This document shows positions 3,093-62,466 of a stretch of DNA of 64,000 bases, in pieces. This stretch comes from a virus. The stretch covers positions 1 through 64,000 of the IMG/VR virus record IMGVR_UViG_3300020171_000019. The stretch is one strand, 5' to 3'. The notes beneath the pieces are model-generated. The model saw only the letters and a program-made list of their open reading frames with translations, was not told where the DNA came from and searched no databases. The translations under genes were made by a program, and so were the position numbers. How positions within the stretch are numbered: the stretch's first letter is position 1; every line of letters begins with the position of its first letter.

Positions 3093-3121
3093 TTGACAAA
3101 CACCCTATACGAGTGTATATT
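3093..3121 (+). promoter_or_regulatory. sigma70-type promoter for tnpB copy A
   Basis: TTGACA at 3093-3098, 17-bp spacer, TATATT at 3116-3121. The ATG at 3128 starts 6 nt after the -10 box, so the predicted transcript would begin at or next to the start codon. Confidence 0.75.
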
Positions 3122-3127
3122 GTTTGT

Positions 3128-4351
3128 ATGGAGATTACTCGCACCACAAGACTTAGGGTTGATCTGACGTTCGACGTTGCTGAACGAACGGTTTTGGCAT
3201 GGACTGAGGCTTGTAACTACATCAGCCAAGTCGCCTTTGACCATGATCGAATGGCTAATTCGATCCGCCTGCACCGGTTGGTTTATTACGATGTCCGTGA
3301 GCAATTCGGGCTGTCGTCCCAGATTACAGCCAATGCTATCCGCTGGGTTGCAAGCAAATACCTGGCCCTTTACAAGTCCAAGAAATGCCCGAAGACGCCC
3401 ATTCGATTTCGGATGAATGCGGTCGTTTTGCAAGGCGGTGTTCGTGGCCGAGATTTCTCCTTTCTGGGTCGTGGGTTAAGCATCAGCACTATGGACGGAC
3501 GTATCAAGGGCATTGGATTTCGCGGAGAACCCAGGCTTACCGAGTATCTGACGGACTGGCAACTCGGTGATGCTCGTCTTTTCGTGAGAAAACATAAGGT
3601 CTACCTGGCTGTCTCGTTCACGAAGAATGTCCAGACAGTTCACCTTCCCAACGATGCTGTTGTTGGGGTTGACCGAGGAATCAACTGCCTTGCCGTAGTC
3701 ACCGACGGCCAGAAACAACAGTTCTTCGGTGGCGGATACACCAAGCATGTGCATCGTCGTTACGCCCTCATTCGCGCCAATCTCCAACGGAAAAAGACAG
3801 AGCATCCGACTCGCAGTATCCGTCGAGTGATCAAACTGCTGTCCGGACGAGAAGCACGATTCACCCGCAACACTAATCACGTCGTAAGCAAGCAGATCAT
3901 TACGTTCGCTGCACAAACCGGGAACCCCACGATTGCACTGGAAGACCTCAATGGCATCCGCAACGGGCGTCGATTCCGGAAAGCACAACGCACCGACCTT
4001 AACCGATGGAGCTTTGCTCAACTGGAGTTCTTCATCCGGTATAAGGCCGAAGCCCTCGGGTTCGAGGTTGTTGGCGTTGACCCGAAGAACACCAGTAAGG
4101 GATGCTCTCGGTGCGGCTATGTTGATGATCGGAATCGCCGCTTGTTGAGTTTCTGCTGCCATGCTTGTGGTCTCCAATTGCACTCTGATCTTAACGCCTC
4201 TCGTAATATCCGACTGAGAGGTATCCTGGCTCGGCAAGTCCTGGGTCAGGTTGGGCCGCCGTCAATCGGCCCCGAAGCACGACTCGATGACTCCGGCTCG
4301 AAACCGGACGAGGGGACGGGCAAGCTGCCTGCTTTAGCTGGCAGTAATTGA
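3128..4351 (+). CDS. tnpB: TnpB, RNA-guided nuclease of IS200/IS605 family
   Basis: 407 aa, full length for the family. The RuvC active site is intact: GVDRGI (Asp near residue 182), LEDLNG (Glu near 272) and SDLNASRN (Asp near 354). Between the last two lies a CSRCG...CCHACG zinc finger. By family knowledge TnpB uses an omegaRNA encoded at its own 3' end to cut matching DNA, which favours retention of the element. ATG 3128 is preferred over an in-frame GTG at 3113, which overlaps the promoter -10 box. Confidence 0.88.
   Translation: MEITRTTRLRVDLTFDVAERTVLAWTEACNYISQVAFDHDRMANSIRLHRLVYYDVREQFGLSSQITANAIRWVASKYLALYKSKKCPKTPIRFRMNAVVLQGGVRGRDFSFLGRGLSISTMDGRIKGIGFRGEPRLTEYLTDWQLGDARLFVRKHKVYLAVSFTKNVQTVHLPNDAVVGVDRGINCLAVVTDGQKQQFFGGGYTKHVHRRYALIRANLQRKKTEHPTRSIRRVIKLLSGREARFTRNTNHVVSKQIITFAAQTGNPTIALEDLNGIRNGRRFRKAQRTDLNRWSFAQLEFFIRYKAEALGFEVVGVDPKNTSKGCSRCGYVDDRNRRLLSFCCHACGLQLHSDLNASRNIRLRGILARQVLGQVGPPSIGPEARLDDSGSKPDEGTGKLPALAGSN
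4325..4344 (+). other. right-end hairpin / probable omegaRNA scaffold of copy A
   Basis: CTGCC, a 10-nt loop containing TGCTTTAGCT, then GGCAG. It sits over the last codons of tnpB, where IS605-type elements place the right-end hairpin and the omegaRNA scaffold. The guide would be the sequence immediately beyond the element end. Confidence 0.5.
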
Positions 4352-6785: not shown

Positions 6786-6960
6786 CACCGGCACGACAGC
6801 GGAGTATGTCGATTGCGACGGATGGTCGGCAGACTTGGGTTGCAACAAAACGTGCAAGCCGCAGGACTGGAAAGGCCGATACGGGGGCAGGAATCTGTGC
6901 AGTCAATGTGCCAAGAGACGGGATGGCGATAACAGGAATTGGGCGTGGTTGACAAGATGA
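6760..6960 (+). CDS. small zinc-ribbon protein
   Basis: 66 aa starting inside the end of the 6132 gene, with GGAGGGAG about 10 nt upstream. Cysteines at CDGWSADLGCNKTC and LCSQCAK can bind one zinc. Function unknown. Confidence 0.5.
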   Translation: MTPLRRQPDTGTTAEYVDCDGWSADLGCNKTCKPQDWKGRYGGRNLCSQCAKRRDGDNRNWAWLTR

Positions 6961-6984
6961 AGGCGGAGATTAAGGAGGTGCCGA

Positions 6985-7173
6985 GTGATAGAGGATGTGG
7001 TTGTTTGGTTTGTGGTCATGTTCATGGCCGCAGTGGGCGCTTGGCTGATCCGGATGCTTTGGATGGTGGGGAGAAGTGAATCGCATTGCACACTGTATGA
7101 CCTGCGGCCAAGTCAACATCGTCCAGAGGGTAACGACACCGGAGATGAAGGCGGAGATTTAGGAGGTAACTGA
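6985..7173 (+). CDS. small single-pass membrane protein
   Basis: 62 aa from GTG 6985 behind a strong AAGGAGG. A hydrophobic helix (VVVWFVVMFMAAVGAWLIRM) occupies the N-terminus, followed by a polar tail. Two other short frames (6957-7079 and 7076-7162) overlap it. They have weaker start signals and were not preferred. Function unknown. Confidence 0.5.
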   Translation: MIEDVVVWFVVMFMAAVGAWLIRMLWMVGRSESHCTLYDLRPSQHRPEGNDTGDEGGDLGGN

Positions 7174-7373
7174 TGGCATCAGATGTTTCAGTAAGACCAG
7201 TAGAGGCATACGAGACGGCAAGAGAAATCATCGTATTAGGGAGACCCAAACCCAACGATGACTCACATAATTGCGACGTGCTTGGTTGTGGTTCAACTGG
7301 CCCGCACGTTCTCTATAGGTTTTTGAAACCAGAACCAGAAGAATGCCTATGTGGTGAGGATGAACGATCATGA
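7173..7373 (+). CDS. unknown small protein with cysteine pairs
   Basis: 66 aa starting at TGATG 7173 with AGGAGGT upstream. Contains NCDVLGCG and CLCGED. The stop overlaps the ATG of the next gene. No family recognised. Confidence 0.5.
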   Translation: MASDVSVRPVEAYETAREIIVLGRPKPNDDSHNCDVLGCGSTGPHVLYRFLKPEPEECLCGEDERS

Positions 7374-16963: not shown

Positions 16964-18103
16964 TCAGGCTACGCATGAGCTTAAAGCCTCTACGTTAGCG
17001 CCTGACGGCACAGTCCGTGCCGATTGTAAGATGTTCTTGGCCGCGTTCTGGTCGCGGCACAACACTAAACCACAGGAATCGCAATGATACACCCGAACAG
17101 ACAGCGTAACTTTCTTGACAGGGATAACCCCGCACGCGAAGCACCGCTGCGTAGTGTATCTGGGATCGACCCCCACCACCTCGACCCCGGCGCATTCTGC
17201 CTTGAATCGGAGTATGTTCAGGAAGTTACCCCATCCTGCATCGTTGACGGACTTCGCCAACATACTGCGAGAAAGTCCCTTGACGTTCAGGTCTTCGTGA
17301 GCAATAAGGCCGTATTTACCGACAAGGGAAAGAGCGGTCTTGTGGTGAAAGTCTCGGCGTTGGTTCCCAACATGCAGATGCACTTTGGCTACACGCCTGA
17401 CTGCCTTTTTGCGACGGCGGCTTCCCCTCTTCTTTCGGGAGAGAGAGCGTTGTGCGATGCGGAGTTTCTTCTCTGCACCAGCGAAGAACCGTGGAGGATC
17501 AACAGAAGCACCGTCGGAAGTGACAAGAAACGACTTCAACCCCAGGTCAATACCAACAGGAGGATTGACGGACGGGATGACATCAACATCCGGGAGCTCA
17601 CAGGAGAAAGATACATACCACGACCCAGCTTTTGTGCTCACGGTCAGGGAAGCGATACGAGCATCCACGGGAAGCTCCCGATGCAACTTCACCTTCACCA
17701 TACCAACGTGCTGAACGTAGACCTTATGGCACTTCAGTTTGCTGCCGTCGCCGTATGTGAACTTCACAGAATCAAAACGACCCACACCCTTGAATCGGGG
17801 ATACCCAGGTTTTTCGCCAGTCTTAATCCTACGGAAGAAGTTTCGAAAAGCACGATCAAGACGGCGCAGGGTGTGTTGGCAGGAAGAGAAGTTGACACCC
17901 ACAAGGGAAGGAACGTCGGGGCGGTCCAGTGTCAGCCGAGCGGATTGTTCGGAATACTTCACGGATTTCTGATCATCCTCGAAAGAGTTCTTGCGCCAGG
18001 ACAAGGCCATGTTGTAAATCCGGCGGTGCGTCTCAAGCATCTGCTCAAGAGCGAGGACTTGAGTTTTGGTCGGATACAGGCGGTATTTGAATCCCTTACG
18101 CAT
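16964..18103 (-). CDS. tnpB: TnpB, RNA-guided nuclease of IS200/IS605 family
   Basis: 379 aa starting MRKGFKYRLYPTKTQ, the usual OrfB N-terminus. RuvC residues are intact: PVGIDLGLKS (Asp), IAHEDLNVKG (Glu) and CRDQNAAKN (Asp), with CFACG...CDSCG zinc finger. It is only distantly similar in sequence to copy A although both share the same left end. They therefore appear to be different TnpB lineages using one TnpA-recognised end. A long open frame on the + strand opposite it is a shadow. Confidence 0.9.
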   Translation of the reverse strand: MRKGFKYRLYPTKTQVLALEQMLETHRRIYNMALSWRKNSFEDDQKSVKYSEQSARLTLDRPDVPSLVGVNFSSCQHTLRRLDRAFRNFFRRIKTGEKPGYPRFKGVGRFDSVKFTYGDGSKLKCHKVYVQHVGMVKVKLHRELPVDARIASLTVSTKAGSWYVSFSCELPDVDVIPSVNPPVGIDLGLKSFLVTSDGASVDPPRFFAGAEKKLRIAQRSLSRKKRGSRRRKKAVRRVAKVHLHVGNQRRDFHHKTALSLVGKYGLIAHEDLNVKGLSRSMLAKSVNDAGWGNFLNILRFKAECAGVEVVGVDPRYTTQRCFACGVIPVKKVTLSVRVYHCDSCGLVLCRDQNAAKNILQSARTVPSGANVEALSSCVA

Positions 18104-18219
18104 GCTACTCTCCAAACAGAAAGGCCCACCGGGTGCGAATTGACTTGGTGAGCCAAAACCGGAGGGCCAGTCTATAAAACATGACAAAAAGGAAAACTCA
18201 CCTTTCAATTCGCATATAT

Positions 18220-30471: not shown

Positions 30472-30972
30472 ATGAAAACGATCTTGAGTATTTTTGTAGT
30501 GGTCGGGCTTCTGTCTGGGGGTATAGCACAAGCGGAGTTGATCGAGGGATATGCGGCCAATCAGGTTGTTTTGTGGGATTCAACGGACATATTCACAGAC
30601 TCTACAGACGTCACGCTATCCACTATCGTAATGATGGAGCAAAGCACACGACTGTCGGTCTACTATCAGGCGGTTTCGGCAAGCGGGACACCGAATATCA
30701 AGCTCGATATGCTCCAGTCCTACGAGAATACTGCATCGAAGTTTGCGACACCGGACACAACTACGACTCTGCGGTATAGTGGTGGTTGGTATGAGATTGC
30801 GAATATCCCGGCCATTGCAGACAGCTTGAAGGACGAAGTTGTCCACATCAAAGAGATTGCGCCGATTCCGATGAGATACTTGAGATTGAGGGTCACTGGG
30901 CGGGCTACAAATGCGCCTGATACACGAGTGAGAGTTGTTCTATTCGCACAACCACCCGTCCGCGTTCAATAG
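30472..30972 (+). CDS. unknown protein with signal peptide
   Basis: 166 aa; MKTILSIFVVVGLLSGGIAQ then A/E is a textbook signal peptide. The mature part is beta-rich (ANQVVLWDSTDIFTDSTDVT, MRYLRLRVTGRATNAPDTRV). It lies directly before the DGR target gene and may be part of the same surface assembly. Function unknown. Confidence 0.55.
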   Translation: MKTILSIFVVVGLLSGGIAQAELIEGYAANQVVLWDSTDIFTDSTDVTLSTIVMMEQSTRLSVYYQAVSASGTPNIKLDMLQSYENTASKFATPDTTTTLRYSGGWYEIANIPAIADSLKDEVVHIKEIAPIPMRYLRLRVTGRATNAPDTRVRVVLFAQPPVRVQ

Positions 30973-30984
30973 AGGAGATAGGCA

Positions 30985-33438
30985 ATGAAAAGACTGAGTT
31001 TGATTCTGGTTGGGCTGATTGCCCTTGTGCTTCCTGCGGTAGGGAGTGCATCAAAGTGGACAGTTGCGGACACGTTGCGCGTGGACAAGATCATTGCCAA
31101 AGATTCAAGCGCGGTACAGATGGGCGCAATGAGCACTGCGTTGAGCGGTAAGATCTTGGCTGATTCGGTTCTGGGGCGGACGGATACGAACACAGGCATT
31201 GTGTTGGCCGGTAGCGATACGATCAAGATGCAGACATCCGGAACGGTGCGCCTGAAGGTGAATCCTGACGGGACCGTGACGTTCATTAGCAACATCGGGG
31301 CTGAGAATGAGCCTACTCCATCATTCCCTATTTCATTCTTGAGCGGCACAGGGGACAAGATCGCACTGTGGGGCCAGTCCGGCAACACTTATGGTTTTGG
31401 TATTCAGAGTAACCTGCTACAGATTCACACGGACGTAACTGGTGCGGACATTGCATTCGGGTACGGCTCCTCGGCGGCACTGACCGAGACGGCTCGGTTG
31501 ACAGGCGCAGGACAGCTACAGATACCCACTATTGACGTTGCTGGAGGGATTCTACTCGGCGGAGATGTCAACCTCTATCGCGCTTCCGCTAATCGCCTGA
31601 AGACGGATGATGCTCTCACCGTAAACGATACTCTTAGCGTTACGGGTAAGAGTATCCTGACTGGGATTGTAAGCGTTGGAAACGGAACCGCTGCTCTTCC
31701 AGCGATAGCCGGTATCAGCGATCCGAATACCGGAATGAGGTTTCCAACAGGCGATACGCTTGCGTTCTCGACAGGCGGGAGCGAGCAGGTGCGGATTGAT
31801 CCTAGTGGCAACGTCGGCTTCGGAACCACAACTTTCGGCACGAATGCGGCGAAAGTGATCGGTCTTAGCGCAGGGGTTTCTCCTACCACGAGTCTTGCGG
31901 ATATGTCCCAGATATGGGCAGTAGACTACAACGGAGCGGGGTCTAATCGTCCGTATGTCAGAACCGAGGAAGGCAACTCCTCGCCAATCGCTGCACTCTC
32001 CGAAACGGCAATCTACTACGGCATCACGTGGAACGAGTCTGCGGATTCCTACACGAGAACCGGCAGAACTGCAGGACACAAGGTCGCTGCTACGCTTCCT
32101 GCTGGTATGCTGCCGATTCAAGAGTCTATGCGTGGCTGTCTTCTCTCCGACGCTGGAGCGGTGAACTACTACCTATCGCCTACAAACTGGGCATATAAGG
32201 AAGACGGTGCAACCGCCTCAGTTCTCACCGGCGCAGGTGGCCAGGTGATGGTGGAGATACCGAAGTTCTGGTACCGCTACGGTTACGCAAGCACAACTCA
32301 TACGTGGGAAGTATCCCCCGTTCCGATGTCGGGTTTCGCGCCTCATCCCGCGTTCTACAAAGACGGTGCTTGGGTGGACAACAGATACATCGGAGCATAT
32401 GAGGGAACGCTCTACAATGTAGGGAGCGCTTTCTACGAAAACAAGTTCGCACCGGTTGCTTCGCATTCTGCAACCTTCGATGTTGATCCCGGAACGATTA
32501 CTGCCGGCTCAGGAACGCCTTATTCGTGGTTGGCGGCTGGCGATACGATCGTTGTTACGGGAGCTGGAGGCAGTAACGGGACATACGCTATTAGCACGGT
32601 GACGGGAACCGTTATTACGTGTACTGGAGTCATAGCCGGTGTTGATTCTGTGCAGGCAACAACGGTGATTTCGTCTCTTGCGGCGGATTGGACTGCAACC
32701 ACAGGCGATAAGCTGAGCTCAGTGTCAGGATTGTTCGCAGTCTCGAATGGCACGCGAGCGCAGTTCCGCGAGATCGCCCTGAATAGGGGAGCTGGCTGGA
32801 GGCAGATAGATTACGATCTGGTTGCGGCGATTCAGCTCTTGTGTCTGACTGAGTATGCATCGTTCTATACACAGTCCGTGATTGGCGCAGGCATCTCGAA
32901 TGTCGCCGACTGGAGTGCTTACAATGCTTACTATCCCATTGCCAAAACCGGCACAGGTAATGCGATCGGGAATGCGAGCGGTAACACGGCAGGTTCAACA
33001 ACTGCTGCGGCAGAGGTGAGTGATTACGTCAAGTATAGAGGAATTGAACAGTGGTACGGACACCTGTGGAAATTTGTAGATGGGATCAACATCAACAACA
33101 ACATCCCATATCGGTGCAACACGGAGACTAACTTTGCCGATGACACGGCAAGTAACTACACCGCGATGACGAATGCCCTCGGCGCTGCAGTGACACTGCA
33201 CAACGCCAATGGGTATGTGGCTACGCTGCAAAAGATGAAATGGGGATTTCTGCCTGCGAGCGTAGGCGCAGACGGAGCAACGAAGATCACCGATTACTAC
33301 TATCAGAATAGCGGCTGGCGCGTCGCCTTGTTCGGTGGCGCTTCTGAGGATGGCGCGAATGACGGTGGCTTCTATTGGTATCTGAATAATGCCTCATCCG
33401 ATGCCAATCCGTATATTTGCGCCCGCGTTGGATTTTAG
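30985..33438 (+). CDS. DGR target protein with C-type-lectin-like variable domain
   Basis: 817 aa. The N-terminus MKRLSLILVGLIALVLPAVG is a signal peptide. Residues about 30-330 are beta-helical fibre-like repeats (GSEQVRIDPSGNVGFGTTTF). The C-terminal part has motifs of the formylglycine-generating-enzyme/CLec fold used by DGR proteins (GMLPIQESMRGCLLSDAG, VEIPKFWYRYGYA, YYYQNSGWRVALFGG). The last about 40 residues (33316-33435) are the variable region; 13 differ from the template translation, mostly at Asn/Thr/Ser/His codons. It is probably the receptor-binding or adhesion protein. Confidence 0.85.
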   Translation: MKRLSLILVGLIALVLPAVGSASKWTVADTLRVDKIIAKDSSAVQMGAMSTALSGKILADSVLGRTDTNTGIVLAGSDTIKMQTSGTVRLKVNPDGTVTFISNIGAENEPTPSFPISFLSGTGDKIALWGQSGNTYGFGIQSNLLQIHTDVTGADIAFGYGSSAALTETARLTGAGQLQIPTIDVAGGILLGGDVNLYRASANRLKTDDALTVNDTLSVTGKSILTGIVSVGNGTAALPAIAGISDPNTGMRFPTGDTLAFSTGGSEQVRIDPSGNVGFGTTTFGTNAAKVIGLSAGVSPTTSLADMSQIWAVDYNGAGSNRPYVRTEEGNSSPIAALSETAIYYGITWNESADSYTRTGRTAGHKVAATLPAGMLPIQESMRGCLLSDAGAVNYYLSPTNWAYKEDGATASVLTGAGGQVMVEIPKFWYRYGYASTTHTWEVSPVPMSGFAPHPAFYKDGAWVDNRYIGAYEGTLYNVGSAFYENKFAPVASHSATFDVDPGTITAGSGTPYSWLAAGDTIVVTGAGGSNGTYAISTVTGTVITCTGVIAGVDSVQATTVISSLAADWTATTGDKLSSVSGLFAVSNGTRAQFREIALNRGAGWRQIDYDLVAAIQLLCLTEYASFYTQSVIGAGISNVADWSAYNAYYPIAKTGTGNAIGNASGNTAGSTTAAAEVSDYVKYRGIEQWYGHLWKFVDGININNNIPYRCNTETNFADDTASNYTAMTNALGAAVTLHNANGYVATLQKMKWGFLPASVGADGATKITDYYYQNSGWRVALFGGASEDGANDGGFYWYLNNASSDANPYICARVGF
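33314..33431 (+). repeat. DGR variable region (VR)
   Basis: Aligns without gaps to 33489-33606 (offset 175). There are 18 mismatches in 118 columns, 17 of them at template adenines (A to G 13, A to T 3, A to C 1) and one T to G at template 33523. It ends 7 bp before the gene's stop codon. Confidence 0.92.
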
Positions 33439-33488
33439 GTATTATATGAAAGGAGGTTATGAAATAAACAGGATGTACACTCTGGTGC

Positions 33489-33606
33489 ACTGGCACGTCG
33501 CCTTATTCAGTGGCAATTCTAATAATGGCACGAATGACAGTGACTTCTATTGGAATCTGAATAATGCCTCATCCAATGCCAATCCGAATATTTGCACCCA
33601 CGTAGG
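33489..33606 (+). repeat. DGR template repeat (TR)
   Basis: Non-diversified, adenine-rich copy of the VR rich in AAT/AAC codons. It lies 57 bp after the VR and 128 bp before the reverse transcriptase start. It is readable in the VR frame as part of a short open frame (33446-33610), which I do not count as a gene. The 33607-33734 spacer holds a small TTGCC-TCTT-GGCAG hairpin near 33648 and may belong to the template RNA. Confidence 0.92.
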
Positions 33607-33734
33607 TTGAGCCAACTTGAAAACGATTTTGTGAGTGTACAATCCTTGCCTCTTGGCAGAAGAAACAGCATCTCCACTAAGGGTTGGTAGGGTGCAGAAA
33701 TGCATATCGAACGCCCTGGAGATGGCTTAAACCA

Positions 33735-34769
33735 ATGAAGCGACATGGCAATCTGTACAAGGCAATCTGCACGACAGAGAACATCGCAGAAGCCCACAGG
33801 AACGCACGGAAGGGAAAGACGCACTACGGTGAAGTGCAAAAGGTGGACAAAAATCCCGAGATGTATTTTCCCAAGATCCAGAGAATGTTGATGCACAAAA
33901 CGTTTCGCAACTCCAGATACTCAGTATTCAAGTTGAGAGATGCAGGCAAAGAAAGAATTATCCACAAACTCCCGTACTTCCCAGACAGGATCGTTCATCA
34001 CGCCATAATGCAAGTAGTGGAACCAATCTGGAAGCGCACGCTTATCAATGATACATTCTCGTCAATCAGGGGCAGGGGAATCCATAAGGGAATGAAGCGG
34101 ATAACAGGGGCGATGCAAGACAAAGAGGGCACGAGATATTGCCTGAAGCTTGACATAAGCAAATACTACCCATCCATCGACCATGATGTCTTGAAACAGA
34201 TCATTCGCAGAAAAATAAAGGACCCTGATCTTCTCTGGTTACTTGATGAAATTATAGACTCGGCTCCAGGTGTCCCGATAGGAAATTACCTGAGTCAGTA
34301 TTTTGCCAACTTGTATCTGAACGGCTTTGATCACTGGGCGAAGGAAACAATGAGAATCAAGTGGTATTTCAGGTATTGTGACGACATTGTAATCTTCGGT
34401 GCCACGAAAGAAGGATTACACGTGCTCCTATCTAAAATCCGGGACTACTTGTGTCAGGTTCTACGGTTGAGCGTCAAAGGCAACTACCAGGTGTTTCCCG
34501 TTGAGGTGCGCGGCGTAGACTTTCTTGGGTATGTATTCCGGCACAGCCATACCCTCGTGCGACGACGGATTAGGGACAACTGCATCAAGGCATTGAAAGG
34601 AAATATCCGGGACATCCACAAGCAACTACCGAGTTACTTCGGGTGGTTCGGTCACTGCAACAGTCACAATCTTCGGCGATCCCTTGTTGGGGATGACCTA
34701 CGGGAACGAATGAACAGATATTGCCAGATGAGCGCATTGAGTAATCCACTTAGAGGAGGTTTGATATGA
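33735..34769 (+). CDS. DGR reverse transcriptase
   Basis: 344 aa. Palm motifs are complete: LKLDISKYYPSIDHD (catalytic Asp, near residue 139), VPIGNYLSQYFANLYL with the DGR-specific IGNxxSQ signature (near 182), and FRYCDDIVIF (YxDD box, near 215), followed by VRGVDFLGYVF. It would copy TR RNA with adenine-directed errors and the cDNA would replace the VR (mutagenic homing). The start is ATG 33735; no strong ribosome site is visible. No avd gene lies next to it. Confidence 0.93.
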   Translation: MKRHGNLYKAICTTENIAEAHRNARKGKTHYGEVQKVDKNPEMYFPKIQRMLMHKTFRNSRYSVFKLRDAGKERIIHKLPYFPDRIVHHAIMQVVEPIWKRTLINDTFSSIRGRGIHKGMKRITGAMQDKEGTRYCLKLDISKYYPSIDHDVLKQIIRRKIKDPDLLWLLDEIIDSAPGVPIGNYLSQYFANLYLNGFDHWAKETMRIKWYFRYCDDIVIFGATKEGLHVLLSKIRDYLCQVLRLSVKGNYQVFPVEVRGVDFLGYVFRHSHTLVRRRIRDNCIKALKGNIRDIHKQLPSYFGWFGHCNSHNLRRSLVGDDLRERMNRYCQMSALSNPLRGGLI

Positions 34770-35149
34770 AATCAAGCTCCGATCGTTTTCCAGATGTGGT
34801 GGTGCTGTCAAACGAGCGTACCCAAATTCGCTACAACGTCTCACCTGTTACCAAGCAGGACATGGACGGCATGATCAGGACGGTCTATGAGTTCGATTAT
34901 GTAGAAATTTCCGGTGATGTAACCAAGGAGAAGATCGTGGAGGCAATCCTTCTTGTAGAGAATCCAGAGCCTGCAATGGAGATCGTGCAGGTCGTTGAGG
35001 AGAAAGCTATTGTCAATGTTGATGCGGTGCGAGTCATGGCAGTAGAGGCAGTAGCAGAAGCGGCAGAACGGTTGAGAACTGCGCCGGACAAGGAAGACGT
35101 TGTGATTGAGACAAACCCAATGGAGGTCATATGGACTGGCAGCAAGTAA
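34766..35149 (+). CDS. unknown protein downstream of DGR RT
   Basis: 127 aa overlapping the RT stop by ATGA. The N-terminal half is a mixed alpha/beta region (VVVLSNERTQIRYNVSPVT). The C-terminal half is an Ala/Val/Glu-rich helix (AVRVMAVEAVAEAAERLRTA). It lacks the compact four-helix composition expected of Avd. Function unknown. Confidence 0.5.
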   Translation: MKSSSDRFPDVVVLSNERTQIRYNVSPVTKQDMDGMIRTVYEFDYVEISGDVTKEKIVEAILLVENPEPAMEIVQVVEEKAIVNVDAVRVMAVEAVAEAAERLRTAPDKEDVVIETNPMEVIWTGSK

Positions 35150-43300: not shown

Positions 43301-43690
43301 TCTCTTAATTTCGTGCAGGCAGCCAAGTATGCAGCATTGGCGGCACTTACGGGATTGGCCGCTGGTGTTGCGGGTGGATATGCAGAACGGCAACGCAGCT
43401 TGATAGACAAGCAACTGAGTGTCCCAACAGGACAGACACAAGGAGGAGGGAGTGGTGGTGGTGAAGGTATTTATGGAGGATCACGCGCCGAAACTACGTC
43501 CTTTGCCGCTGTGTCCGTCCAGAAGGAACCGAACATCACGATTGCGCCATCCGTGACAATAGAAGCCGGTCACGATGTTTTCATAGGCGAGGGCAGCGTT
43601 GAGGAATTCAAGGTTTCACTGGAGCGCGTGATGGTGCAGTCCATCAAGGACGCGATGAGCACCGGACAAATCAAGGTAGGGAGAGGATGA
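40331..43690 (+). CDS. tape measure protein
   Basis: 1119 aa, the second-longest gene of the window, directly after the chaperones. Long helical stretches and hydrophobic segments (ILEVGKAAAIIGALAVAMSY; AIMVAAGPWLLLVGALTAAG) and a Gly-rich stretch near the C-terminus (GGGSGGGEGIYGG). It sets tail length and leaves the tail at ejection. Residues about 525-610 repeat a LPKEQSIKIKTMG / IPRDKRIKLNITG / LPKEQLIKITTYG motif three times. Confidence 0.85.
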   Translation: MPPGLSRRLSLIVDMSSKAALTGLKQLQSAINAVSATAGRVGTGAATGFSALQKGASAATGAMQRLGEGIRSSWMIASIAISAVSAAIGLFINKTAAAYQQMQSATIGLRTIAKSYGYSGDEAEAAARQLEKSTNGFLDMGSAAQALKNLLGAGLDLPRATEQIKAMTEQAIFNRQTHYGLAEAVIVATEGIKNEMSIAADATGTTKNLALMWRDYAKARGLNVMELTKLQKAEAAYIGFMEEGTRSAGDFSKALGTAQGFEVMLGFAVRKTSQAIGEFSAQLKWGVANALTPYITQVRTWIEAHKEAIRAKVAEWVRSITAAIAQAIETGIKYGSMLIDWIMKNRDFILEVGKAAAIIGALAVAMSYLKSPILVSIAALLVLMAQSEVLRGVLMELAKFVNDHKGVLLTMLGMFVATQIVTSITMVTGMVGKLQFALLALATSPAVPMFVTSLVQGFAAIMVAAGPWLLLVGALTAAGVALYRMWDESNKRMKEAAKTTANMKTPIENDMTALMDMSRELQKLPKEQSIKIKTMGMTETQTTVRDYMKVLEEIPRDKRIKLNITGKSEIEASVDEHIRQLERLPKEQLIKITTYGEKEATTTAGAHLQTVLGAAAATQKAMRKPEGQRTPEEREQIGLFSAKKYGFSLTDLPVARKTPTSATKATDEQMQAMKKLRNLQAEINMEAMSGYAKEVEAIRQKREASIAEQGELQKKAGVAVTLIANTTLAEKEAATARQKLDQETLSKVRETMGEIMALGMTNTQVELANIDAVKQARIKALVETRNMLRAMAEAPGAGPEAKQRLAEFERKIPQSLAGVETVAATSKVDVVKKGKEEDKQKLVDAQKAMMDEMTTAAIAAYNRGDIADALSTGKKIENMQRVANSKQELITAMMAGESALTEYLLNEWGRQSEAHQTMLDVTKNSFMAVALVMERVGQAMFDKDVRRQLTAVNVAKMAGRAVLAEFADMIKAKLELRMKEYVLEATAAAISLNFVQAAKYAALAALTGLAAGVAGGYAERQRSLIDKQLSVPTGQTQGGGSGGGEGIYGGSRAETTSFAAVSVQKEPNITIAPSVTIEAGHDVFIGEGSVEEFKVSLERVMVQSIKDAMSTGQIKVGRG

Positions 43691-44289
43691 TGACCTGGGA
43701 TGAGGCGCAACCCTTGATCAATAGCATCGACGGCTTTCTGGGGGCACAAGAAGGGGAGTGGCTTTTTCGGCAGGTTCAGGCAATACCTGATAGTGCAGTT
43801 GTCGTGGAGATAGGAAGTCTGCGAGGGCGGTCAACGGCCTGCTTGGCTCTTGGGTGCAAAGGGACGCAAAAGAGAGTGATTGCCATTGATCCGTTTGTTG
43901 ACTGCCGGTATGACCTGGCAGGGGCGCAGTCCTACTTCGATGTCTGGCGTGGCAACATGGAGCGCATTGGGGTGATTGACCGGATTGAGTCTTTGGTTAT
44001 GGATAGTCGGCAAGCAGGCGCATTGTGGGGGCAGCGGCAAACACCAATACACTTACTTTTTGTCGATGGTTCGCATTTGAGGGATGACGTTATTGCTGAT
44101 TTCGAGGACTTCTTTCCTTGGGTTGTGGAGGGTGGGGTAGTTGCATTTCACGACATACTTAACAATTTTGTGGGGCCACAGGAAGCATGGGAAAGGTGCT
44201 CCGGACTGTTGATCAACGTCGGGATGTGTGATTCTATGATGTTCGGACAAAAACCGGCCACGAACTACGAGGGCAAGAATGGTCACTGA
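43687..44289 (+). CDS. class I SAM-dependent methyltransferase (Methyltransf_24-like)
   Basis: 200 aa overlapping the tape measure stop. VVVEIGSLRGRSTACLALG is the SAM-binding motif I, VIAIDPF motif II, and HLLFVDGSHLRDDVIADFED with GGVVAFHDI complete the O-methyltransferase-like pattern seen in sugar and cephalosporin hydroxylase-like methyltransferases. First of a run of carbohydrate and modification genes placed inside the tail operon. Confidence 0.8.
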   Translation: MMTWDEAQPLINSIDGFLGAQEGEWLFRQVQAIPDSAVVVEIGSLRGRSTACLALGCKGTQKRVIAIDPFVDCRYDLAGAQSYFDVWRGNMERIGVIDRIESLVMDSRQAGALWGQRQTPIHLLFVDGSHLRDDVIADFEDFFPWVVEGGVVAFHDILNNFVGPQEAWERCSGLLINVGMCDSMMFGQKPATNYEGKNGH

Positions 44290-44830
44290 CAGGTCTCTGC
44301 ATCGACACACCGTGGCGGATGGTTTTCTGAGACGTCATTTGCCACATGGTTCAGGAGTAGTGATTGATGTTGGAGCGAGCGAAAACCACGAATACGAAGA
44401 CAACTACCGGGCGACCTTTAAGTCATTCGGCTATGAATACAAGCCGGGATACCTTGTTGAAGGCTGGGATCTGGCGCAGAGACAAGGCTGCAAATATACT
44501 GGCATTTTCTGTTCTCACGTGCTTGAACACATTCCGAACGATGAAATAGCGGCCAAATATCTTTGGTCGATGGCAGGGAGCTTCCTGGTGGTGGTTCTGC
44601 CGATAGCCGATGAGCACATTGAATACGGGGAAGCTCGACAAGAGGAATGGGGTCATGTGCGGCGATACTCAATAGAGAGAGTGTTGTCATTGTTTCCTGA
44701 CTTGCCAGATGCCTGTGAGGTTGAGGATGTGATTTCTTTCCTTCCATCAGGGGAGTCATGTCCGTTTGACAACTGGCAAATAGAGTGCCTGTGGGTCAAG
44801 GAGGAGGATAGATGTCATTCTCGGGACTGA
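44279..44830 (+). CDS. SAM-dependent methyltransferase-like protein
   Basis: 183 aa. GVVIDVGASENHEYEDNYRA, then CSHVLEHIPNDEIAAKYLW, the xxHVLEH(I/V) motif of Methyltransf_11-type enzymes. The motif I glycines are reduced, so activity is likely but not certain. Overlaps both neighbours. Confidence 0.65.
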   Translation: MVTDRSLHRHTVADGFLRRHLPHGSGVVIDVGASENHEYEDNYRATFKSFGYEYKPGYLVEGWDLAQRQGCKYTGIFCSHVLEHIPNDEIAAKYLWSMAGSFLVVVLPIADEHIEYGEARQEEWGHVRRYSIERVLSLFPDLPDACEVEDVISFLPSGESCPFDNWQIECLWVKEEDRCHSRD

Positions 44831-45642
44831 GCCCCAACGGAGTGCCCTATACCTGTGATAGCTGGCCGGAAGACAAAACCGGCGACTTCAACTGTGCTAT
44901 CCTTGACATTGACATCACGCACAGATGCAACCTGCGATGCGACGGGTGTATGCACTACTGCAATTATGGTATCGGCGGCGATCATCCATTCGGTGAAGGA
45001 GGCCAGTGGATGCGGAATTGGGCCGGGAAAGTGAAACCGGCGCGATTCACGATTGTCGGCGGGGAGCCATTATTGCATCCAGGGTTACATGACTACATGT
45101 TGCTTGGCGCAGAACTGTTCCCGGATTCAAGGCGTCGGGTATATACGAATGGATGGTTTCTACATGCCACACTCGGAAAGTGGCTACAGGAGACCGGATT
45201 CGATCTCTACATAAGCATGTATCCTGTGTCCAGTGACAAGGTTTTGCGGCGAGATGAGGGTATCCGGAGGTTTCTGTCCGAGGTGCCACAGGACGTATCA
45301 GTGCAAGCCGTGCAGATGAAAGATCACTGGAGAAGACCGCATCTTGGCTTCGGGTCAACACTACGACCGCACAACAGCGATCCTGTAGGGGCGTGGTCTT
45401 GGTGTACCGCACGACACGCAGTCCAGTTACACGACAATCGACTCTGGAAATGCTGCGTGTCTGCATATCTGCCGATGGCCTTGGGAAAACTCGGACTTAT
45501 GGAATGTCCGGAATGGCAACCCTTCCTGGATCAACACAGCCTTGGGACAGAAGCAACATACGACGACGTGGCAGTATTCGCATTGCGCGGCGCAGAGGCC
45601 ATTTGCGAGATGTGCCCGGACGATGGATGGGGTGAGGTATGA
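44812..45642 (+). CDS. radical SAM protein with SPASM-like C-terminal cysteines
   Basis: 276 aa. THRCNLRCDGCMHYC carries the CxxxCxxC cluster motif. FTIVGGEPLLHPGLHDYM is the GGEP motif that contacts SAM. C-terminal WSWCTARHAVQLHDNRLWKC and AICEMCPDDG give the extra cysteines of a SPASM or twitch auxiliary cluster. Such enzymes perform radical chemistry on peptides, sugars or nucleosides. Its placement between methyltransferases and glycosyltransferases suggests modification of a glycan or virion peptide. Confidence 0.85.
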   Translation: MSFSGLSPNGVPYTCDSWPEDKTGDFNCAILDIDITHRCNLRCDGCMHYCNYGIGGDHPFGEGGQWMRNWAGKVKPARFTIVGGEPLLHPGLHDYMLLGAELFPDSRRRVYTNGWFLHATLGKWLQETGFDLYISMYPVSSDKVLRRDEGIRRFLSEVPQDVSVQAVQMKDHWRRPHLGFGSTLRPHNSDPVGAWSWCTARHAVQLHDNRLWKCCVSAYLPMALGKLGLMECPEWQPFLDQHSLGTEATYDDVAVFALRGAEAICEMCPDDGWGEV

Positions 45643-46373
45643 TCGTGTCGGTTGTTGTACCGGTCTGTAATGTGGATCAATTCACGGGGACGCTATTTTC
45701 CTTATCTCAACAGACGAGGATGGCTGACGAAATAGTGATGGTGATTGAGAGAAGATTGTTGGGATTGATTCCGCTGAAATGGGTTTGTAAGCAGTTGGAA
45801 CTGCCGATTGTCTGGTCTATAATCAAGGATGAGGACAGAGGGAAATCAGGCAAGCGCCGCAACATTGGAGCACGAGAGGCGAGGGGTGACATACTTCTCT
45901 TTGTAGATGACACGATTCTGCTACCAAACAATGCGATAGAACGAATGACGAGTTATTACCAGTCTGATTCATTGGCGGTATCTGCACGAATACTGTTGTG
46001 CTATGGCGACGAGGGGTGCATTGAAATGCCTCGCAAAGATGGCCTTTGTGCATGGGGGGCATACAGGCCGTGGACAAACACCTCAATGATTCAACGAGAC
46101 GTATTCTTCGACGTTGGAGCTTTTGATGAGGACGTGGATGACACAAAAGACGGCTGGGGGAACGATGATGAAGACATAACATATCGGATAATCAAAGCCG
46201 GAATTCCACACGTGATTGATACATCGGTGACTTGTATTCATCTTAACCATCCGCGGTATGCGGCTCGTGGGTGGACGGATGCAGGCAAGGCGTATTTTCA
46301 CAAGAAACACGGAATGACAGTTCCCGAAACACACCAATGGATACACGAAAGTGGACTCGTGAGGGTTGTATGA
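45639..46373 (+). CDS. family 2 glycosyltransferase
   Basis: 244 aa. MIVSVVVPVCNVDQFTGTLF is the GT-A start, GDILLFVDDTILLP holds the DxD-like metal site, and WGNDDEDITYRIIKAG the acceptor-side ED motif. It transfers a sugar from a nucleotide donor. No TM helix, so it is cytoplasmic. Confidence 0.8.
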   Translation: MIVSVVVPVCNVDQFTGTLFSLSQQTRMADEIVMVIERRLLGLIPLKWVCKQLELPIVWSIIKDEDRGKSGKRRNIGAREARGDILLFVDDTILLPNNAIERMTSYYQSDSLAVSARILLCYGDEGCIEMPRKDGLCAWGAYRPWTNTSMIQRDVFFDVGAFDEDVDDTKDGWGNDDEDITYRIIKAGIPHVIDTSVTCIHLNHPRYAARGWTDAGKAYFHKKHGMTVPETHQWIHESGLVRVV

Positions 46374-47251
46374 CTTCTTGGTTGATTCTTCTGGACAATG
46401 ACGAAAAGGGCAGCACGTCCGTCAGGCATGCACGATACATTGAACGAGTCCTTCGATCCCAGCCAAAAGAGCACTCGGTGCAACGCTTGGTGTGGCGAGA
46501 AGGGATCGTTGTTCCTGATGCTGATATTGTGATTGACATAGGTTCACGGTGCCGGATTGAGGAGATAGGGGCTAAACTGAAGATCAACTACATCGAAGCC
46601 CTCCCGGGGTATCACACTCCCCTTGATGACAAGCGATATGACCTCTACATCTCGGGTAGTCCGCAACTGGCGCAGAATGACAGATGGCACTATATTCCAC
46701 CGCCGGTTGATCCTGCAATGTTCAAAGCGGACGAGCAACACAAGACTTCATTGCCAGAGATTGACGGAGTGACATACATCGGCCAATACTATGGTATGAA
46801 GTCATACCGGAAGGACATGAACCGGCTTCAGGATTTCTTACAGGCAGCGAGCGCGATGTATCCGGTCTCGGTCTATGGAGACAACTGGCAATCAGCGCGA
46901 CCACCGTTGAGGCTGATGCACCGGGGGTACTGTGACCTGATAGACTTGTGGTCAGTGTATCGACATAGCATAGCGATCAACACAACCAAGGGTCTTGACC
47001 ATTCTTCCACGGCTTGCAATCTGCGCCCTATGGAAACATGGGCATCTGGGGGCATCCTGTGGTCTGATCCATTGCCTCCAGAGTTCGACGAATGGTATGT
47101 CCCATTGGGTGAGATAAACAAGGAAAGCCTGTGCAATGAGATCATGGAAAGGATGGAGCCACAACGAGAGGAATTTCGTCGGGTAGTTTGTGAACGATAC
47201 AACTACCGTGTGTTTGTGGATAAACTTCTGCGGCTGACACAAGAATACTGA
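46370..47251 (+). CDS. glycosyltransferase-like protein (CgeB-like)
   Basis: 293 aa, ATGA overlap. The C-terminal half, YRHSIAINTTKGLDHSSTAC followed by NLRPMETWASGGILWSD, resembles the E-x7-G donor-binding end of GT-B enzymes of the CgeB/Glyco_trans_1_2 type. The N-terminal half is a Rossmann-like domain (DIVIDIGSRCRIEEIGAKL). Confidence 0.65.
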   Translation: MTSWLILLDNDEKGSTSVRHARYIERVLRSQPKEHSVQRLVWREGIVVPDADIVIDIGSRCRIEEIGAKLKINYIEALPGYHTPLDDKRYDLYISGSPQLAQNDRWHYIPPPVDPAMFKADEQHKTSLPEIDGVTYIGQYYGMKSYRKDMNRLQDFLQAASAMYPVSVYGDNWQSARPPLRLMHRGYCDLIDLWSVYRHSIAINTTKGLDHSSTACNLRPMETWASGGILWSDPLPPEFDEWYVPLGEINKESLCNEIMERMEPQREEFRRVVCERYNYRVFVDKLLRLTQEY

Positions 47252-47260
47252 GAGGGCAAG

Positions 47261-48277
47261 ATGCGTATCGGTTTTTGGGTTGACGGCAATCGGATCGTGA
47301 CAGAATCGGACTTCCAGTCTCAACCCCTGGGAGGCACTGAGCACTCCATCTTGCGGCTGTCCCAAACACTGGCCGCACGAGGGCACGAGGTGTATCTGTC
47401 GGGGGCCACTGAAACCAGGGCAATACTTGATGGCCGTGTTGTGATTCTCCCAGCGACTTCTTTTCTGGCAATCCCCTATCTCGATGTGGTGATATGCACG
47501 AATGGATTGCATTCAATCCCGAATGCAAAGAGGGTCTTCTTGTGGTCGCACATCTACCAGTTTGATGCTCCCGATCCCGTTTCTATCTTGGATTGCGGCG
47601 GCATCGTCTATGCAAGTGAATCATATCGGGTGCTTCTGACGGAGAAATATCCGTGGCTTGAAGAGTCCAAGTGGTGGCAGATTCCCCTCGGAGTTGATAC
47701 AGCGCCAAAGACACGGCTCAAGCGGTACCCGTGGATAGCTTATGCAGCAATACCGAATCGGGGTCTCAGCGATTTATTGGCTTGGGTAGATGATTTTGTG
47801 GCCGCAGGAATTGAGAAAGTCATGGTTTACTCCGGATGGGAACTCTACTACCCATACCGCAAGGGATTAGAGGATCTTGCACCACTGGCGGAACACCCAA
47901 ATGTGCAGGTTATTGGGGCCTTGCCTTATCAGCAATTACAGAGAGAACTGTCAAGGTGCTTGATCTATTGCTACCCCTGTAATCTTTCTCAAGAGGAACC
48001 CTGGTGCCATTCTGTGCAGACTGCAATAGCCTGTGGTCTTCCGGTTGTGACGACGACTCCGAGGTGGCCGATGTCCGGGCGTGATCGTGGGCAGGTATGG
48101 TGCGGGAGCATAATCAGGAATGACCGCGAAGTGCAAGATCGCATGGTTGCGGCAGTGGCAAGACTCTGCGAGGACAAAGGATACTGGACTAAACTGCATA
48201 ACCAGGGCCAAGAAATCACACAAGAACACTCGTGGGACAAGATTGCCGAGCAATGGGAATCAGTACTCACGAGATAG
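47261..48277 (+). CDS. family 4-like glycosyltransferase
   Basis: 338 aa. MRIGFWVDGNRIVTESDF and LGGTEHSILRLSQTLAARGH are the GT-B N-terminal glycine-rich loop and helix. SQEEPWCHSVQTAIACGLPV is the GT4 E-x7-E-like donor site. Cytoplasmic retaining glycosyltransferase; substrate unknown. Confidence 0.8.
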   Translation: MRIGFWVDGNRIVTESDFQSQPLGGTEHSILRLSQTLAARGHEVYLSGATETRAILDGRVVILPATSFLAIPYLDVVICTNGLHSIPNAKRVFLWSHIYQFDAPDPVSILDCGGIVYASESYRVLLTEKYPWLEESKWWQIPLGVDTAPKTRLKRYPWIAYAAIPNRGLSDLLAWVDDFVAAGIEKVMVYSGWELYYPYRKGLEDLAPLAEHPNVQVIGALPYQQLQRELSRCLIYCYPCNLSQEEPWCHSVQTAIACGLPVVTTTPRWPMSGRDRGQVWCGSIIRNDREVQDRMVAAVARLCEDKGYWTKLHNQGQEITQEHSWDKIAEQWESVLTR

Positions 48278-51666: not shown

Positions 51667-52194
51667 ATGCGAGGTGCGGCATTGGCGGTATTGGTTTGGC
51701 TGTCCTTGCTCTGTTGGTTATCTGGCTGTGGAGGCCACAAGACGACCATTGGTCTGACGGTTAGACCGGATGATCATTCCGGATCGGTGACTGTGACCGT
51801 GGAACCTGCAGGCACAACGAACAAGCCGCAGGACAGTGATGCCGATCTATTGGATAGCAACCTCGGTGAGATATACTTCGACTTTGACAGTGCCTTTCTC
51901 GGGCCAGAGTCAAAACCTGTTCTTCTGCACCATGCGAGGTTGCTTGTGAAAAACTCCGAGATGCAGTTGCGGCTTGACGGGCACTGCGACGAGCGAGGAA
52001 CAGAGGAATACAATCTGGCCCTCGGGGAACGGCGAGCACGAGCGACGAAGGACTATCTGCTCAGGTACGGTATATCGTCAATGCGGGTGTCGATTCGCAG
52101 TTATGGAGAAGAACAGCCTGTCGACCGACGGCACACAGAAGAGTCATGGGCGGCGAACAGGCGGGTTGAGTTTCACCAAGAGTGGGGGAACTGA
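51667..52194 (+). CDS. Pal-like OmpA-domain lipoprotein
   Basis: 175 aa. LVWLSLLCWLSGC is a lipoprotein signal with lipobox LSGC (Cys near residue 21). The mature part is an OmpA_C domain: IYFDFDSAFLGPESKPVL, LRLDGHCDERGTEEYNLALG, ERRARATKDYLLRYGI, ANRRVEF. The Asp and Arg that bind diaminopimelate (DGHCDERG; GERRA) are present. In bacteria Pal links outer membrane to peptidoglycan. A phage copy between tail genes is unusual. Confidence 0.85.
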   Translation: MRGAALAVLVWLSLLCWLSGCGGHKTTIGLTVRPDDHSGSVTVTVEPAGTTNKPQDSDADLLDSNLGEIYFDFDSAFLGPESKPVLLHHARLLVKNSEMQLRLDGHCDERGTEEYNLALGERRARATKDYLLRYGISSMRVSIRSYGEEQPVDRRHTEESWAANRRVEFHQEWGN

Positions 52195-58540: not shown

Positions 58541-58828
58541 ATGGAGGACATTACCGATGGCATCGTGGGGGCAGATCAAGAACCAGGCGGAAGCGATGGA
58601 GCAATTGCTGCGCTTGAGGGCCGAACTTCGAGACGCAGAACGCGACTACAACGAGGCAATCAACTCGGACCTGAAGGAACAGGCCCGACTGAAAATCCAA
58701 CACCTGAAGGGAGAGATTCAGGGGATCAGGTAACATCACGAGAAGCGGCTCTTGCACGGCTTCTAAGCAATACCACCGATCCGGGGAGAAGGAAATGCTT
58801 GCAACGAGAGATCGACACGCTGGGATAG
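58541..58828 (+). CDS. unknown small protein, overlaps another frame
   Basis: 95 aa; AGGAGG sits 5 nt before ATG 58541. The middle is Gly/Pro/Glu-rich as often seen in shadow frames, but the end (SREAALARLLSNTTDPGRRK) looks real and runs past the other frame. See 58557-58733. Confidence 0.35.
   Translation: MEDITDGIVGADQEPGGSDGAIAALEGRTSRRRTRLQRGNQLGPEGTGPTENPTPEGRDSGDQVTSREAALARLLSNTTDPGRRKCLQREIDTLG
58557..58733 (+). CDS. small coiled-coil protein in overlapping frame
   Basis: 58 aa; ATG 58557 with GGAGG 9 nt upstream. Nearly pure helix (AEAMEQLLRLRAELRDAERD). The position after the transglycosylase and before a lipoprotein recalls nested lysis genes, but there is no signal sequence. One of the two frames may be non-coding. 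Confidence 0.45.
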   Translation: MASWGQIKNQAEAMEQLLRLRAELRDAERDYNEAINSDLKEQARLKIQHLKGEIQGIR

Positions 58829-59310
58829 GTTACGCGGCAGTCTTGACTCTGTTCTGGGTCTTAGTTGGATGCGGGCAAGACGAAACGTTCGACTATGCAC
58901 CTGAACACAGACTGGTAAGCGTTAGGATGAACGCAACAGACATCCGAGACCGGGTTGTCAAGTACTACAACTTCGAGTTTGGCTTATCTTCTGATGAGCA
59001 ACCGCAGGTAAGCGCCTACGACATTTCGTTCTCCGCCTCATTCCCCACAGGGGACACACTGAAAGTGCGACAATCCGGAGCAACATCACTACATCAATCA
59101 AGCGCAACAACGCTGTCAGGCATCAAGGATATTCCACCTGCAATTACCCATGCAGAAATCCTTCGCGGCCAAGAAGCGTTTTTTGTTGTACACACTACAT
59201 GGAAACGGATAGTTAAGTGCCGGATTCGCCATGCCAATCTGCAAGACAAACCGATTGTCCTGGAATATGAACTCTATCGCGATCCAACGCCTGACCTGAC
59301 CCTCAACTGA
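58795..59310 (+). CDS. lipoprotein, possible lysis-associated
   Basis: 171 aa behind GGAGAAGGA. GIGYAAVLTLFWVLVGCGQ has a good lipobox (LVGC) preceded by a hydrophobic core. The mature part has no recognised domain. Downstream of the transglycosylase it could be an outer-membrane lysis partner or a superinfection-exclusion protein. A rearranged copy lies at 60073-60360. Confidence 0.6.
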   Translation: MLATRDRHAGIGYAAVLTLFWVLVGCGQDETFDYAPEHRLVSVRMNATDIRDRVVKYYNFEFGLSSDEQPQVSAYDISFSASFPTGDTLKVRQSGATSLHQSSATTLSGIKDIPPAITHAEILRGQEAFFVVHTTWKRIVKCRIRHANLQDKPIVLEYELYRDPTPDLTLN

Positions 59311-61297: not shown

Positions 61298-61519
61298 GTG
61301 AGACGACCAGAGAACGAAGAAGGGGCATTTCATTGTCAGCGGAGAGAGTTGCCGACTGTTTCAATGACGGTCTCTTGGGAGTTATTCAAGCATGCCGATT
61401 TGCTGGCGGCGCGTCGCGGTGTGTCCCTGAGTAAGTTATTGCGGCAACTTCTGGAACAAGCACTGGACGAACAATCCCTTGACGACCATGAGAAGAGGAT
61501 GCATCCACCATGCGCATAG
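61298..61519 (+). CDS. ribbon-helix-helix-like small protein
   Basis: 73 aa from GTG 61298. LPTVSMTVSWELFKHADLLA, then ARRGVSLSKLLRQLLEQALD has a strand followed by two helices as in Arc/MetJ-type DNA-binding proteins. Could be a local repressor. Overlaps the next gene. Confidence 0.55.
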   Translation: MRRPENEEGAFHCQRRELPTVSMTVSWELFKHADLLAARRGVSLSKLLRQLLEQALDEQSLDDHEKRMHPPCA

Positions 61520-62466
61520 CCTCAGACGGCTTGTTTCAGTTTCCTCTCACATACGGCGATGTCCCGATTACTGATGAGTGGCGTAATGAAATCCTGTCAT
61601 ATGACATCATCCAGTGCTTGGACTACTACACATTCGGGGCCAATGCTTGCCGTGTAGGACATCGGCGGGTGGTGTGCTACGTCAATGAAAACGTCCCATT
61701 CAACTCCCAGTATGTCGGGCATGCTCTGGAAAATAAAGAGATCATCCAGAAACACGCCGTGCGGCTCGTGGCAACATCCCGGTCGGTGGTGGACTGCCTG
61801 ATGATCGAGGGAGTGCCAGCAGGAAAAATCATAGACTGTCCAATATGGACGACCCCGGCGTGTTTCAAGCCGACTTTTACGCCGACTGATGAAGAGAAGC
61901 GCATTGCTCTGCGCCGGTCTCTTGACTTACCAGACAGGCCGATGGTGCTCTATGTGGGACGACTGAGCTGGGCGAAGGGGTTGAAGATTGCTGAGGATGC
62001 GATTCGAGGGCTTGATGTGACATGGCTCCTGATTGGGGCACAAGAGAGTTACAATCCTCCCGACTGGTCTTGTTGGATTCAGCATTTGAGCACGCCGGAG
62101 GAGCTGATACCGTATTACATGGCCGCTGATGTTCTTATCCTCCCGTCCTTACCGACACCGGGATGGATTGAGCAATACGGGCGGGTGCTTGTAGAGGCTC
62201 AGGCTTGTGGCTGTCCTGTAATCTCAACAGACATGGGAGGGCCGAGAGACTTGGTTGTCAATAACGAAACGGGATTTCTTGTTCCGCCAGGGAATCCGGC
62301 CAGCTTGAGAGGAGCTATCTCGCGGGTTGTCGGAGATGGATTCCTGCGCGATCGGCTACGGAGAACAGCACTGAGCAGATATAAGCGAAAGTTTGCGACG
62401 AAGAAGATTGAGAAGCGACTGCAACACGTCTACGATCAGGTGACGGGGATTGAACCTACTTGGTAA
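61510..62466 (+). CDS. family 4 glycosyltransferase
   Basis: 318 aa. LVATSRSVVDCLMIEGVPAG, PMVLYVGRLSWAKGLKIAED (donor-domain start) and EQYGRVLVEAQACGCPVIST (E-x7-E) are GT4 hallmarks. Last + strand gene before a convergent minus-strand cluster; its end overlaps the end of the 62456 gene by 11 nt. Confidence 0.85.
   Translation: MRIASDGLFQFPLTYGDVPITDEWRNEILSYDIIQCLDYYTFGANACRVGHRRVVCYVNENVPFNSQYVGHALENKEIIQKHAVRLVATSRSVVDCLMIEGVPAGKIIDCPIWTTPACFKPTFTPTDEEKRIALRRSLDLPDRPMVLYVGRLSWAKGLKIAEDAIRGLDVTWLLIGAQESYNPPDWSCWIQHLSTPEELIPYYMAADVLILPSLPTPGWIEQYGRVLVEAQACGCPVISTDMGGPRDLVVNNETGFLVPPGNPASLRGAISRVVGDGFLRDRLRRTALSRYKRKFATKKIEKRLQHVYDQVTGIEPTW

Follow-up and report, generated by a model that had tools for sequence, protein, structure and literature searches.

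The reverse transcriptase (RT) of phage BPP-1, called bRT, belongs to the only diversity-generating retroelement (DGR) studied in depth; there the protein Avd is essential, and the RNA spacer between the template repeat (TR) and the RT gene recruits bRT-Avd and primes the cDNA (PMC12875486). Many DGRs nevertheless lack Avd. The absence of avd is not new in itself, as avd-less DGRs have already been described: that of crAssphage LMMB was assigned to lineage 3 of Wu et al., which is devoid of this gene (PMC7290462). Here we analyse a DGR found in positions 1 to 64,000 (henceforth "the window") of a virus record of 76,137 bp, IMG/VR record IMGVR_UViG_3300020171_000019. It has no avd gene of the BPP-1 type and exhibits the target-TR-RT architecture that characterizes Wu lineage 3 as reported in PMC7290462. 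The locus is a genuine, well-formed avd-less DGR, and we consider it probable that it serves a tailed phage by BPP-1-like retrohoming, in which an RNA organises priming instead of Avd. Its protein-coding and repeat parts are as follows.

30985 to 33438, plus strand: DGR target, a phage tail protein of 817 aa with an N-terminal signal peptide and a C-terminal CLec-type domain with the variable repeat (VR) (PHROG 5302, TaqVP profile and fold match, hydropathy)
33314 to 33431, plus strand: VR (ungapped TR/VR alignment)
33489 to 33606, plus strand: TR (ungapped TR/VR alignment)
33735 to 34769, plus strand: DGR-type RT of 344 aa (RVT_1, PHROG 1423, 8ub7 match, tree)

TR and VR align over 118 bp without gaps and differ at 18 positions, 17 of which are TR adenines (13 A>G, 3 A>T and 1 A>C, plus a single non-adenine change, T>G). 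Given 34 adenines in the 118-nt TR, the hypergeometric probability of at least 17 of 18 mismatches falling at A is 2.5e-10. The differences affect 15 codons and alter 13 residues. The pair ranks second among the ungapped 118-bp repeats in the window, the first of which, around 1434/1841, is unrelated to it. The RT gene extends from an ATG at 33735 to a stop ending at 34769, and its translation contains IGNYLSQ and YCDD. The protein matches RVT_1 and PHROG 1423, and its best match in the PDB (E 8.7e-37) is 8ub7, which we take to be the bRT of BPP-1. An earlier in-frame start, TTG 33684, was rejected because it lies within the spacer RNA described below and because the relatives begin with MKR(Y/H)GN.

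The differing share of TR adenines (17/34, against 1/84 of the other TR sites) suggests that the VR was rewritten recently relative to ordinary divergence, and its homing looks recent. The same pattern was found among relatives of the locus, which comprise 80 IMG/VR loci (RTs 44-56% identical), 10 loci from bacterial genomes, all of them Bacteroidota, crAss-like phages, and Psychrobacillus phage Perkons. The order VR-TR-spacer-RT is common to all these groups and the window; nearly all relatives with enough flank exhibit adenine-biased TR/VR differences, and many have two or three VRs. Loci L074 and L076, which have a long TR and in which no Avd was found, differ at 18 VR positions, all at TR adenines, with no difference in the TR and one in the RT. 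Loci L061 and L063 share 99.6% identity over a stretch of 4.3 kb, with 19 differences in all; the 73-bp VR accounts for nine of these, eight of them at TR adenines, and TR and RT are unchanged. A DGR that is decayed or silent, with parts still recognizable and retrohoming ceased in this phage, would fit the one non-adenine mismatch. We regard it as very unlikely, since all the parts (RT, TR, RNA and target) are intact, the concentration of differences at adenines points to recent rewriting, and variation among the relatives is confined to the VR. The cassette of this phage is apparently working.

The target matches PHROG 5302, "tail protein", with E 1.2e-88, and the VR lies within the part encoding its last 40 residues, at the C-terminus of the CLec-type target. 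A profile of its C-terminal half matched a single PDB sequence, 5vf4, i.e. TaqVP, the DGR variable protein of Thermus aquaticus; a Foldseek search with the predicted model (pLDDT 72) also put TaqVP first (E 6.8e-6), with variants of BPP-1 Mtd, weakly, among the next matches. As far as profile and model can tell, the target is related to the solved DGR variable proteins, with TaqVP and Mtd as its best structural relatives. Its N-terminus, MKRLSLILVGLIALVLPAVGSAS, is by eye and by hydropathy a typical Sec signal peptide, a feature that is odd on tail-like genes, as tailed phages assemble in the cytoplasm. The preceding gene (30472-30972), consecutive with the target gene, also has a Sec-type signal peptide, and signal peptides were likewise seen on consecutive tail-like genes that comprise or adjoin the DGR target in L006 (808-2958 and 3777-5546) and L111 (4906-5628 and 5629-6188). 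These could mean that the element is not a tropism system and that its target is exported, to be displayed at the surface of the infected cell or shed from it, instead of becoming part of the virions. This is unlikely, because the target belongs to a tail protein family, its gene lies between the capsid and tail genes, and most homologous targets have no signal peptide. The first-pass annotation had described the gapless alignment with 17 of 18 differences at TR adenines, the IGNxxSQ and YCDD motifs, a CLec-like C-terminus with 13 altered residues and a signal peptide on the target, and all four descriptions hold, as do the coordinates it gave for the two repeats. On these grounds (adenine-biased TR/VR differences, an RT nearest to bRT of BPP-1 among solved structures, target homology) and on account of an Sp-type RNA, the element is a DGR.

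This structured RNA, located between TR and RT at 33607-33732, was missed by the first-pass annotation, although it is the most informative part of the cassette. Its elements are:

33607 to 33613, plus strand: 5' strand (UUGAGCC) of the long-range helix P0, directly after the TR (fold of the window, permutation tests)
33642 to 33732, plus strand: RT-17 RNA (RF03020), in the TR-RT spacer (44.7 bits, gathering score 40.4)
33646 to 33659, plus strand: hairpin I, UUGCC-UCUU-GGCAG (covariation)
33670 to 33675, plus strand: 5' strand of helix P4, AUCUCC, partner 33718-33723 (permutation test)
33680 to 33685, plus strand: 5' strand of helix P2, AGGGUU, partner 33712-33717 (covariation)
33692 to 33705, plus strand: hairpin P3, inside P2
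33712 to 33717, plus strand: 3' strand of P2, CGCCCU (covariation)
33718 to 33723, plus strand: 3' strand of P4, GGAGAU (permutation test)
33724 to 33730, plus strand: 3' strand of P0, GGCUUAA, ending shortly before the start codon of the RT (fold of the window, permutation tests)

The spacer matches RT-17 over the full length of the model and above its gathering score. The threshold is also passed by 7 of 14 relatives scanned, and the matches in L101, L104, LMMB, cr55_1 and Perkons are sub-threshold. P2 encloses P3 and a conserved UUGGUAG / CGAA loop. To assess covariation, 22 spacers were aligned by plain MAFFT; the structure was taken from the window sequence, and partners were not selected row by row. 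In hairpin I and P2 86% of the cells are paired, with a covariation score of 0.586 against 0.223 +/- 0.024, reached in none of 500 shuffles, and the signal is destroyed when the partners are slid by one column. P4 and P0 were supported in the long-TR class by permutations, which ignore relatedness: own partners scored 11.8 (permuted 9.09 +/- 0.39) for P4 and 16.9 (permuted 13.9 +/- 0.65) for P0, in both cases above all 2000 permutations. When P2 was put to the permutation test, its 3' partner was picked by best fit among a few sites, which slightly favours this helix. P0 pairs the 3' boundary of the TR with the ~30 nt that immediately precede the RT; when 14-nt segments between -43 and +47 were scanned, significance was confined to the TR end (z 4.3 and 4.7), and the signal is kept without the window sequence (0/5000). 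Both P4 and P0 are missing from the RF03020 model of Rfam.

Neither RT-17 nor RF03020 is mentioned in the literature searched, of which Wu 2018 and the paper behind the Rfam entry (Weinberg 2017) were not part. Other Rfam families occupy the spacer position in other DGR phages: Phage_DGR (RF03022) in BPP-1, RT-3 in hankyphage, RT-14 in BalMu-1 and RT-18 in LBR48, with sub-threshold matches to RT-14 in VP58.5 and ACA1 and to RT-4/RT-18 in Arawn (loci L098, L099, L100, L132, L133, L135 and L136). Several of the orphan "RT-n" RNAs thus appear to be clade-specific DGR template spacers, which suggests a role for families that were catalogued without one, namely RT-17, RT-3, RT-14 and RT-18.

The Avd model (bAvd, PF22296) has no match in the whole 76,137-bp record, in agreement with the first-pass annotation, which had seen no avd gene; the same search detected Avd in BPP-1 and in Vibrio phage VP58.5. 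No match above the cut-off was found in 50 records of relatives, many of them fragments, and none was found in hankyphage, LMMB, cr55_1, Perkons and Versailles. In a tree that sets the window RT against those of LMMB and the other relatives, it groups with DGR RTs of crAss-like phages and Perkons. Sixteen RTs, the window RT among them, form a well-supported clade (100/99); most of their TRs are long (about 113-137 nt), and their targets are tail proteins of the CLec type. The RTs of the Avd-using phages BPP-1 and VP58.5 cluster together outside this clade; the tree program warned that the placement of long branches is uncertain. In a larger group next to it the TRs are short (66-91 nt) and the targets small (~125-160 aa), and some short-TR relatives (e.g. 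L047, L053, L033, L077) have up to three small targets (about 125-190 aa) in tandem, each with its own VR, and a single TR. A search with the major capsid protein found no close relatives of the phage.

The first-pass annotation had concluded that either a non-Avd helper or an RT-only lineage was implied. The latter option is the better supported, because the only open reading frame (ORF) coupled to the RT belongs to a tail-protein partner which elsewhere occurs without an RT. Two families, A and B, were found downstream of the RT in relatives, and this ORF is a member of family B:

34766 to 35149, plus strand: gene of the tail protein's partner (family B), which overlaps the stop codon of the RT; right boundary of the cassette, outside the retroelement (HMM built without the window sequence, E 1.3e-12; comes directly after the target homologue in RT-less loci)

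In L102, L103, L105, L108 and Methanosarcina virus MetMV, a family B gene comes immediately after that of the tail protein. The four viral loci yielded no RT, and the annotation of the MetMV stretch lists none. Family B is therefore no part of the retroelement, the ORF was rejected as a substitute for Avd, and the gene order makes TR, RNA and RT (~1.3 kb) look like an insert placed between a tail gene and its partner.

Family A comprises proteins of ~100 aa (PHROG 19665, no Pfam) whose genes overlap or adjoin the RT stop in most loci. It occurs in most avd-less DGRs of Bacteroidota, e.g. in L005-L091, L098, L014, L074 and L080 (in L022 at 6947-7252). Hankyphage p00 and L014 carry it as a C-terminal fusion to the RT; in L074, L076 and L080 it lies between VR and TR, i.e. 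in the place of Avd in BPP-1. These three arrangements around the same RT make family A a plausible candidate for a DGR accessory protein. It may be the one that Wu et al. suggested to be DGR-associated without any Pfam (as told in PMC10053308). Its AlphaFold model is beta-rich (pLDDT 84.6) and has no significant match in the PDB; therefore the possibility of an OB fold was rejected and no fold is claimed. Family A was also rejected as a helper in the window phage, where no homologue was found at E<=10, and within the clade of 16 RTs it was seen only in L010 and L026, although some contigs of this clade end soon after the RT.

An accessory protein could still be required in trans, be it an Avd of the host or a prophage, a highly diverged helper encoded elsewhere in the phage, or family B in a double role. 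The essential role of Avd in BPP-1 speaks for it (PMC12875486), as do the adjoining or fused family A in most relatives outside the window's clade, and the Avd-like matches, one of them over the cut-off, in some genomes with related prophages. We nevertheless find such a helper rather unlikely, given that the record holds neither Avd nor a family A homologue, that family B is tied to the tail protein and not to the RT, and that most of the 16 RTs lack family A.

We propose that the TR and spacer are transcribed together and that the spacer would fold into a closed domain consisting of hairpin I, P4-P2-P3, and P0, which links the 3' boundary of the TR to the bases preceding the start codon of the RT. 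The enzyme would bind this RNA and prime near P0, in the manner of bRT-Avd on the Sp RNA of BPP-1, with the position of P0 at the TR boundary setting the start of copying. It would then copy the TR with misincorporation at adenines, and the cDNA would replace the VR, altering residues of the C-terminal lectin-type domain, which is probably the receptor-binding face of the tail protein. More broadly, the whole clade of the window RT may retrohome without an accessory protein, with the RT-17 core closed by P0 replacing Avd in keeping the 3' end of the TR, together with the priming site, close to the RT, and several orphan RT-n RNAs may be clade-specific spacers in the same sense; for this wider proposal we see the chances as evenly balanced.

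Several observations weigh against our reading of the locus. The pairs L074/L076 and L061/L063 all carry family A, and hence their activity is no proof that an RT-only cassette works; the pattern of a varying VR beside a fixed TR comes from relatives and not from the window copy itself. No support for P4 and P0 was found in short-TR relatives, and the folding energy of the spacer alone is little better than that of shuffles (z -1.4), so that its support is comparative. Besides, the signal peptide is ill-suited to a tail fibre assembled in the cytoplasm.

The locus is a compact (~1.3 kb) test case for DGRs without Avd, with RNA helices backed by covariation, one of which coincides with the TR boundary. 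For targeted protein diversification, a minimal DGR would be a useful tool. New leads are the anatomy of the RNA, the RT-linked ~100-aa protein of the relatives (absent from the window), and the signal peptides of the target and of the protein encoded upstream of it. Elsewhere in the window there are two different TnpB-like genes (OrfB_IS605 / Cas12f1-like TNB; 3113-4351, plus strand, and 16964-18208, minus strand), one of which adjoins the terminase gene. Direct repeats precede the first (1434-1572/1841-1979, 97%; 2501-2630/2786-2915, 75%; 2634-2691/2692-2749, 81%). Matches to a methyltransferase, a radical SAM protein (weak) and a group 1 glycosyltransferase were found in the late region (43687-48277 and 61510-62466), and two small ORFs (51667-52194 and 58795-59310) have lipobox-like N-termini (LSGC, LVGC) and possibly encode phage lipoproteins.

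Among the known systems, the DGR of crAssphage LMMB shares with the window the order target-VR-TR-RT, the lack of avd, a CLec-type tail target, an RT that is 45% identical and a spacer with a sub-threshold match to RT-17; it belongs to another phage, its RT is longer (431 aa vs 344 aa) and its target has no signal peptide. Hankyphage p00 is a Bacteroides phage with a DGR for which PF22296 likewise detects no Avd and which has the same UUGGUAG / UCGAA loop in its spacer, which, however, belongs to RT-3 (RF03068), and its RT is fused to a family A domain. The Rfam family RT-17 (RF03020) itself lacks the outer helices P4 and P0, and its name implies no DGR function. BPP-1 (bRT-Avd-TR-Sp) has in common with the window a DGR RT, adenine mutagenesis, a structured RNA between TR and RT, and a CLec-type target. 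It differs in having Avd between VR and TR, a spacer of the RF03022 family and an RT outside the window's clade, but the spacer RNA of the window occupies the very position of its Sp RNA.

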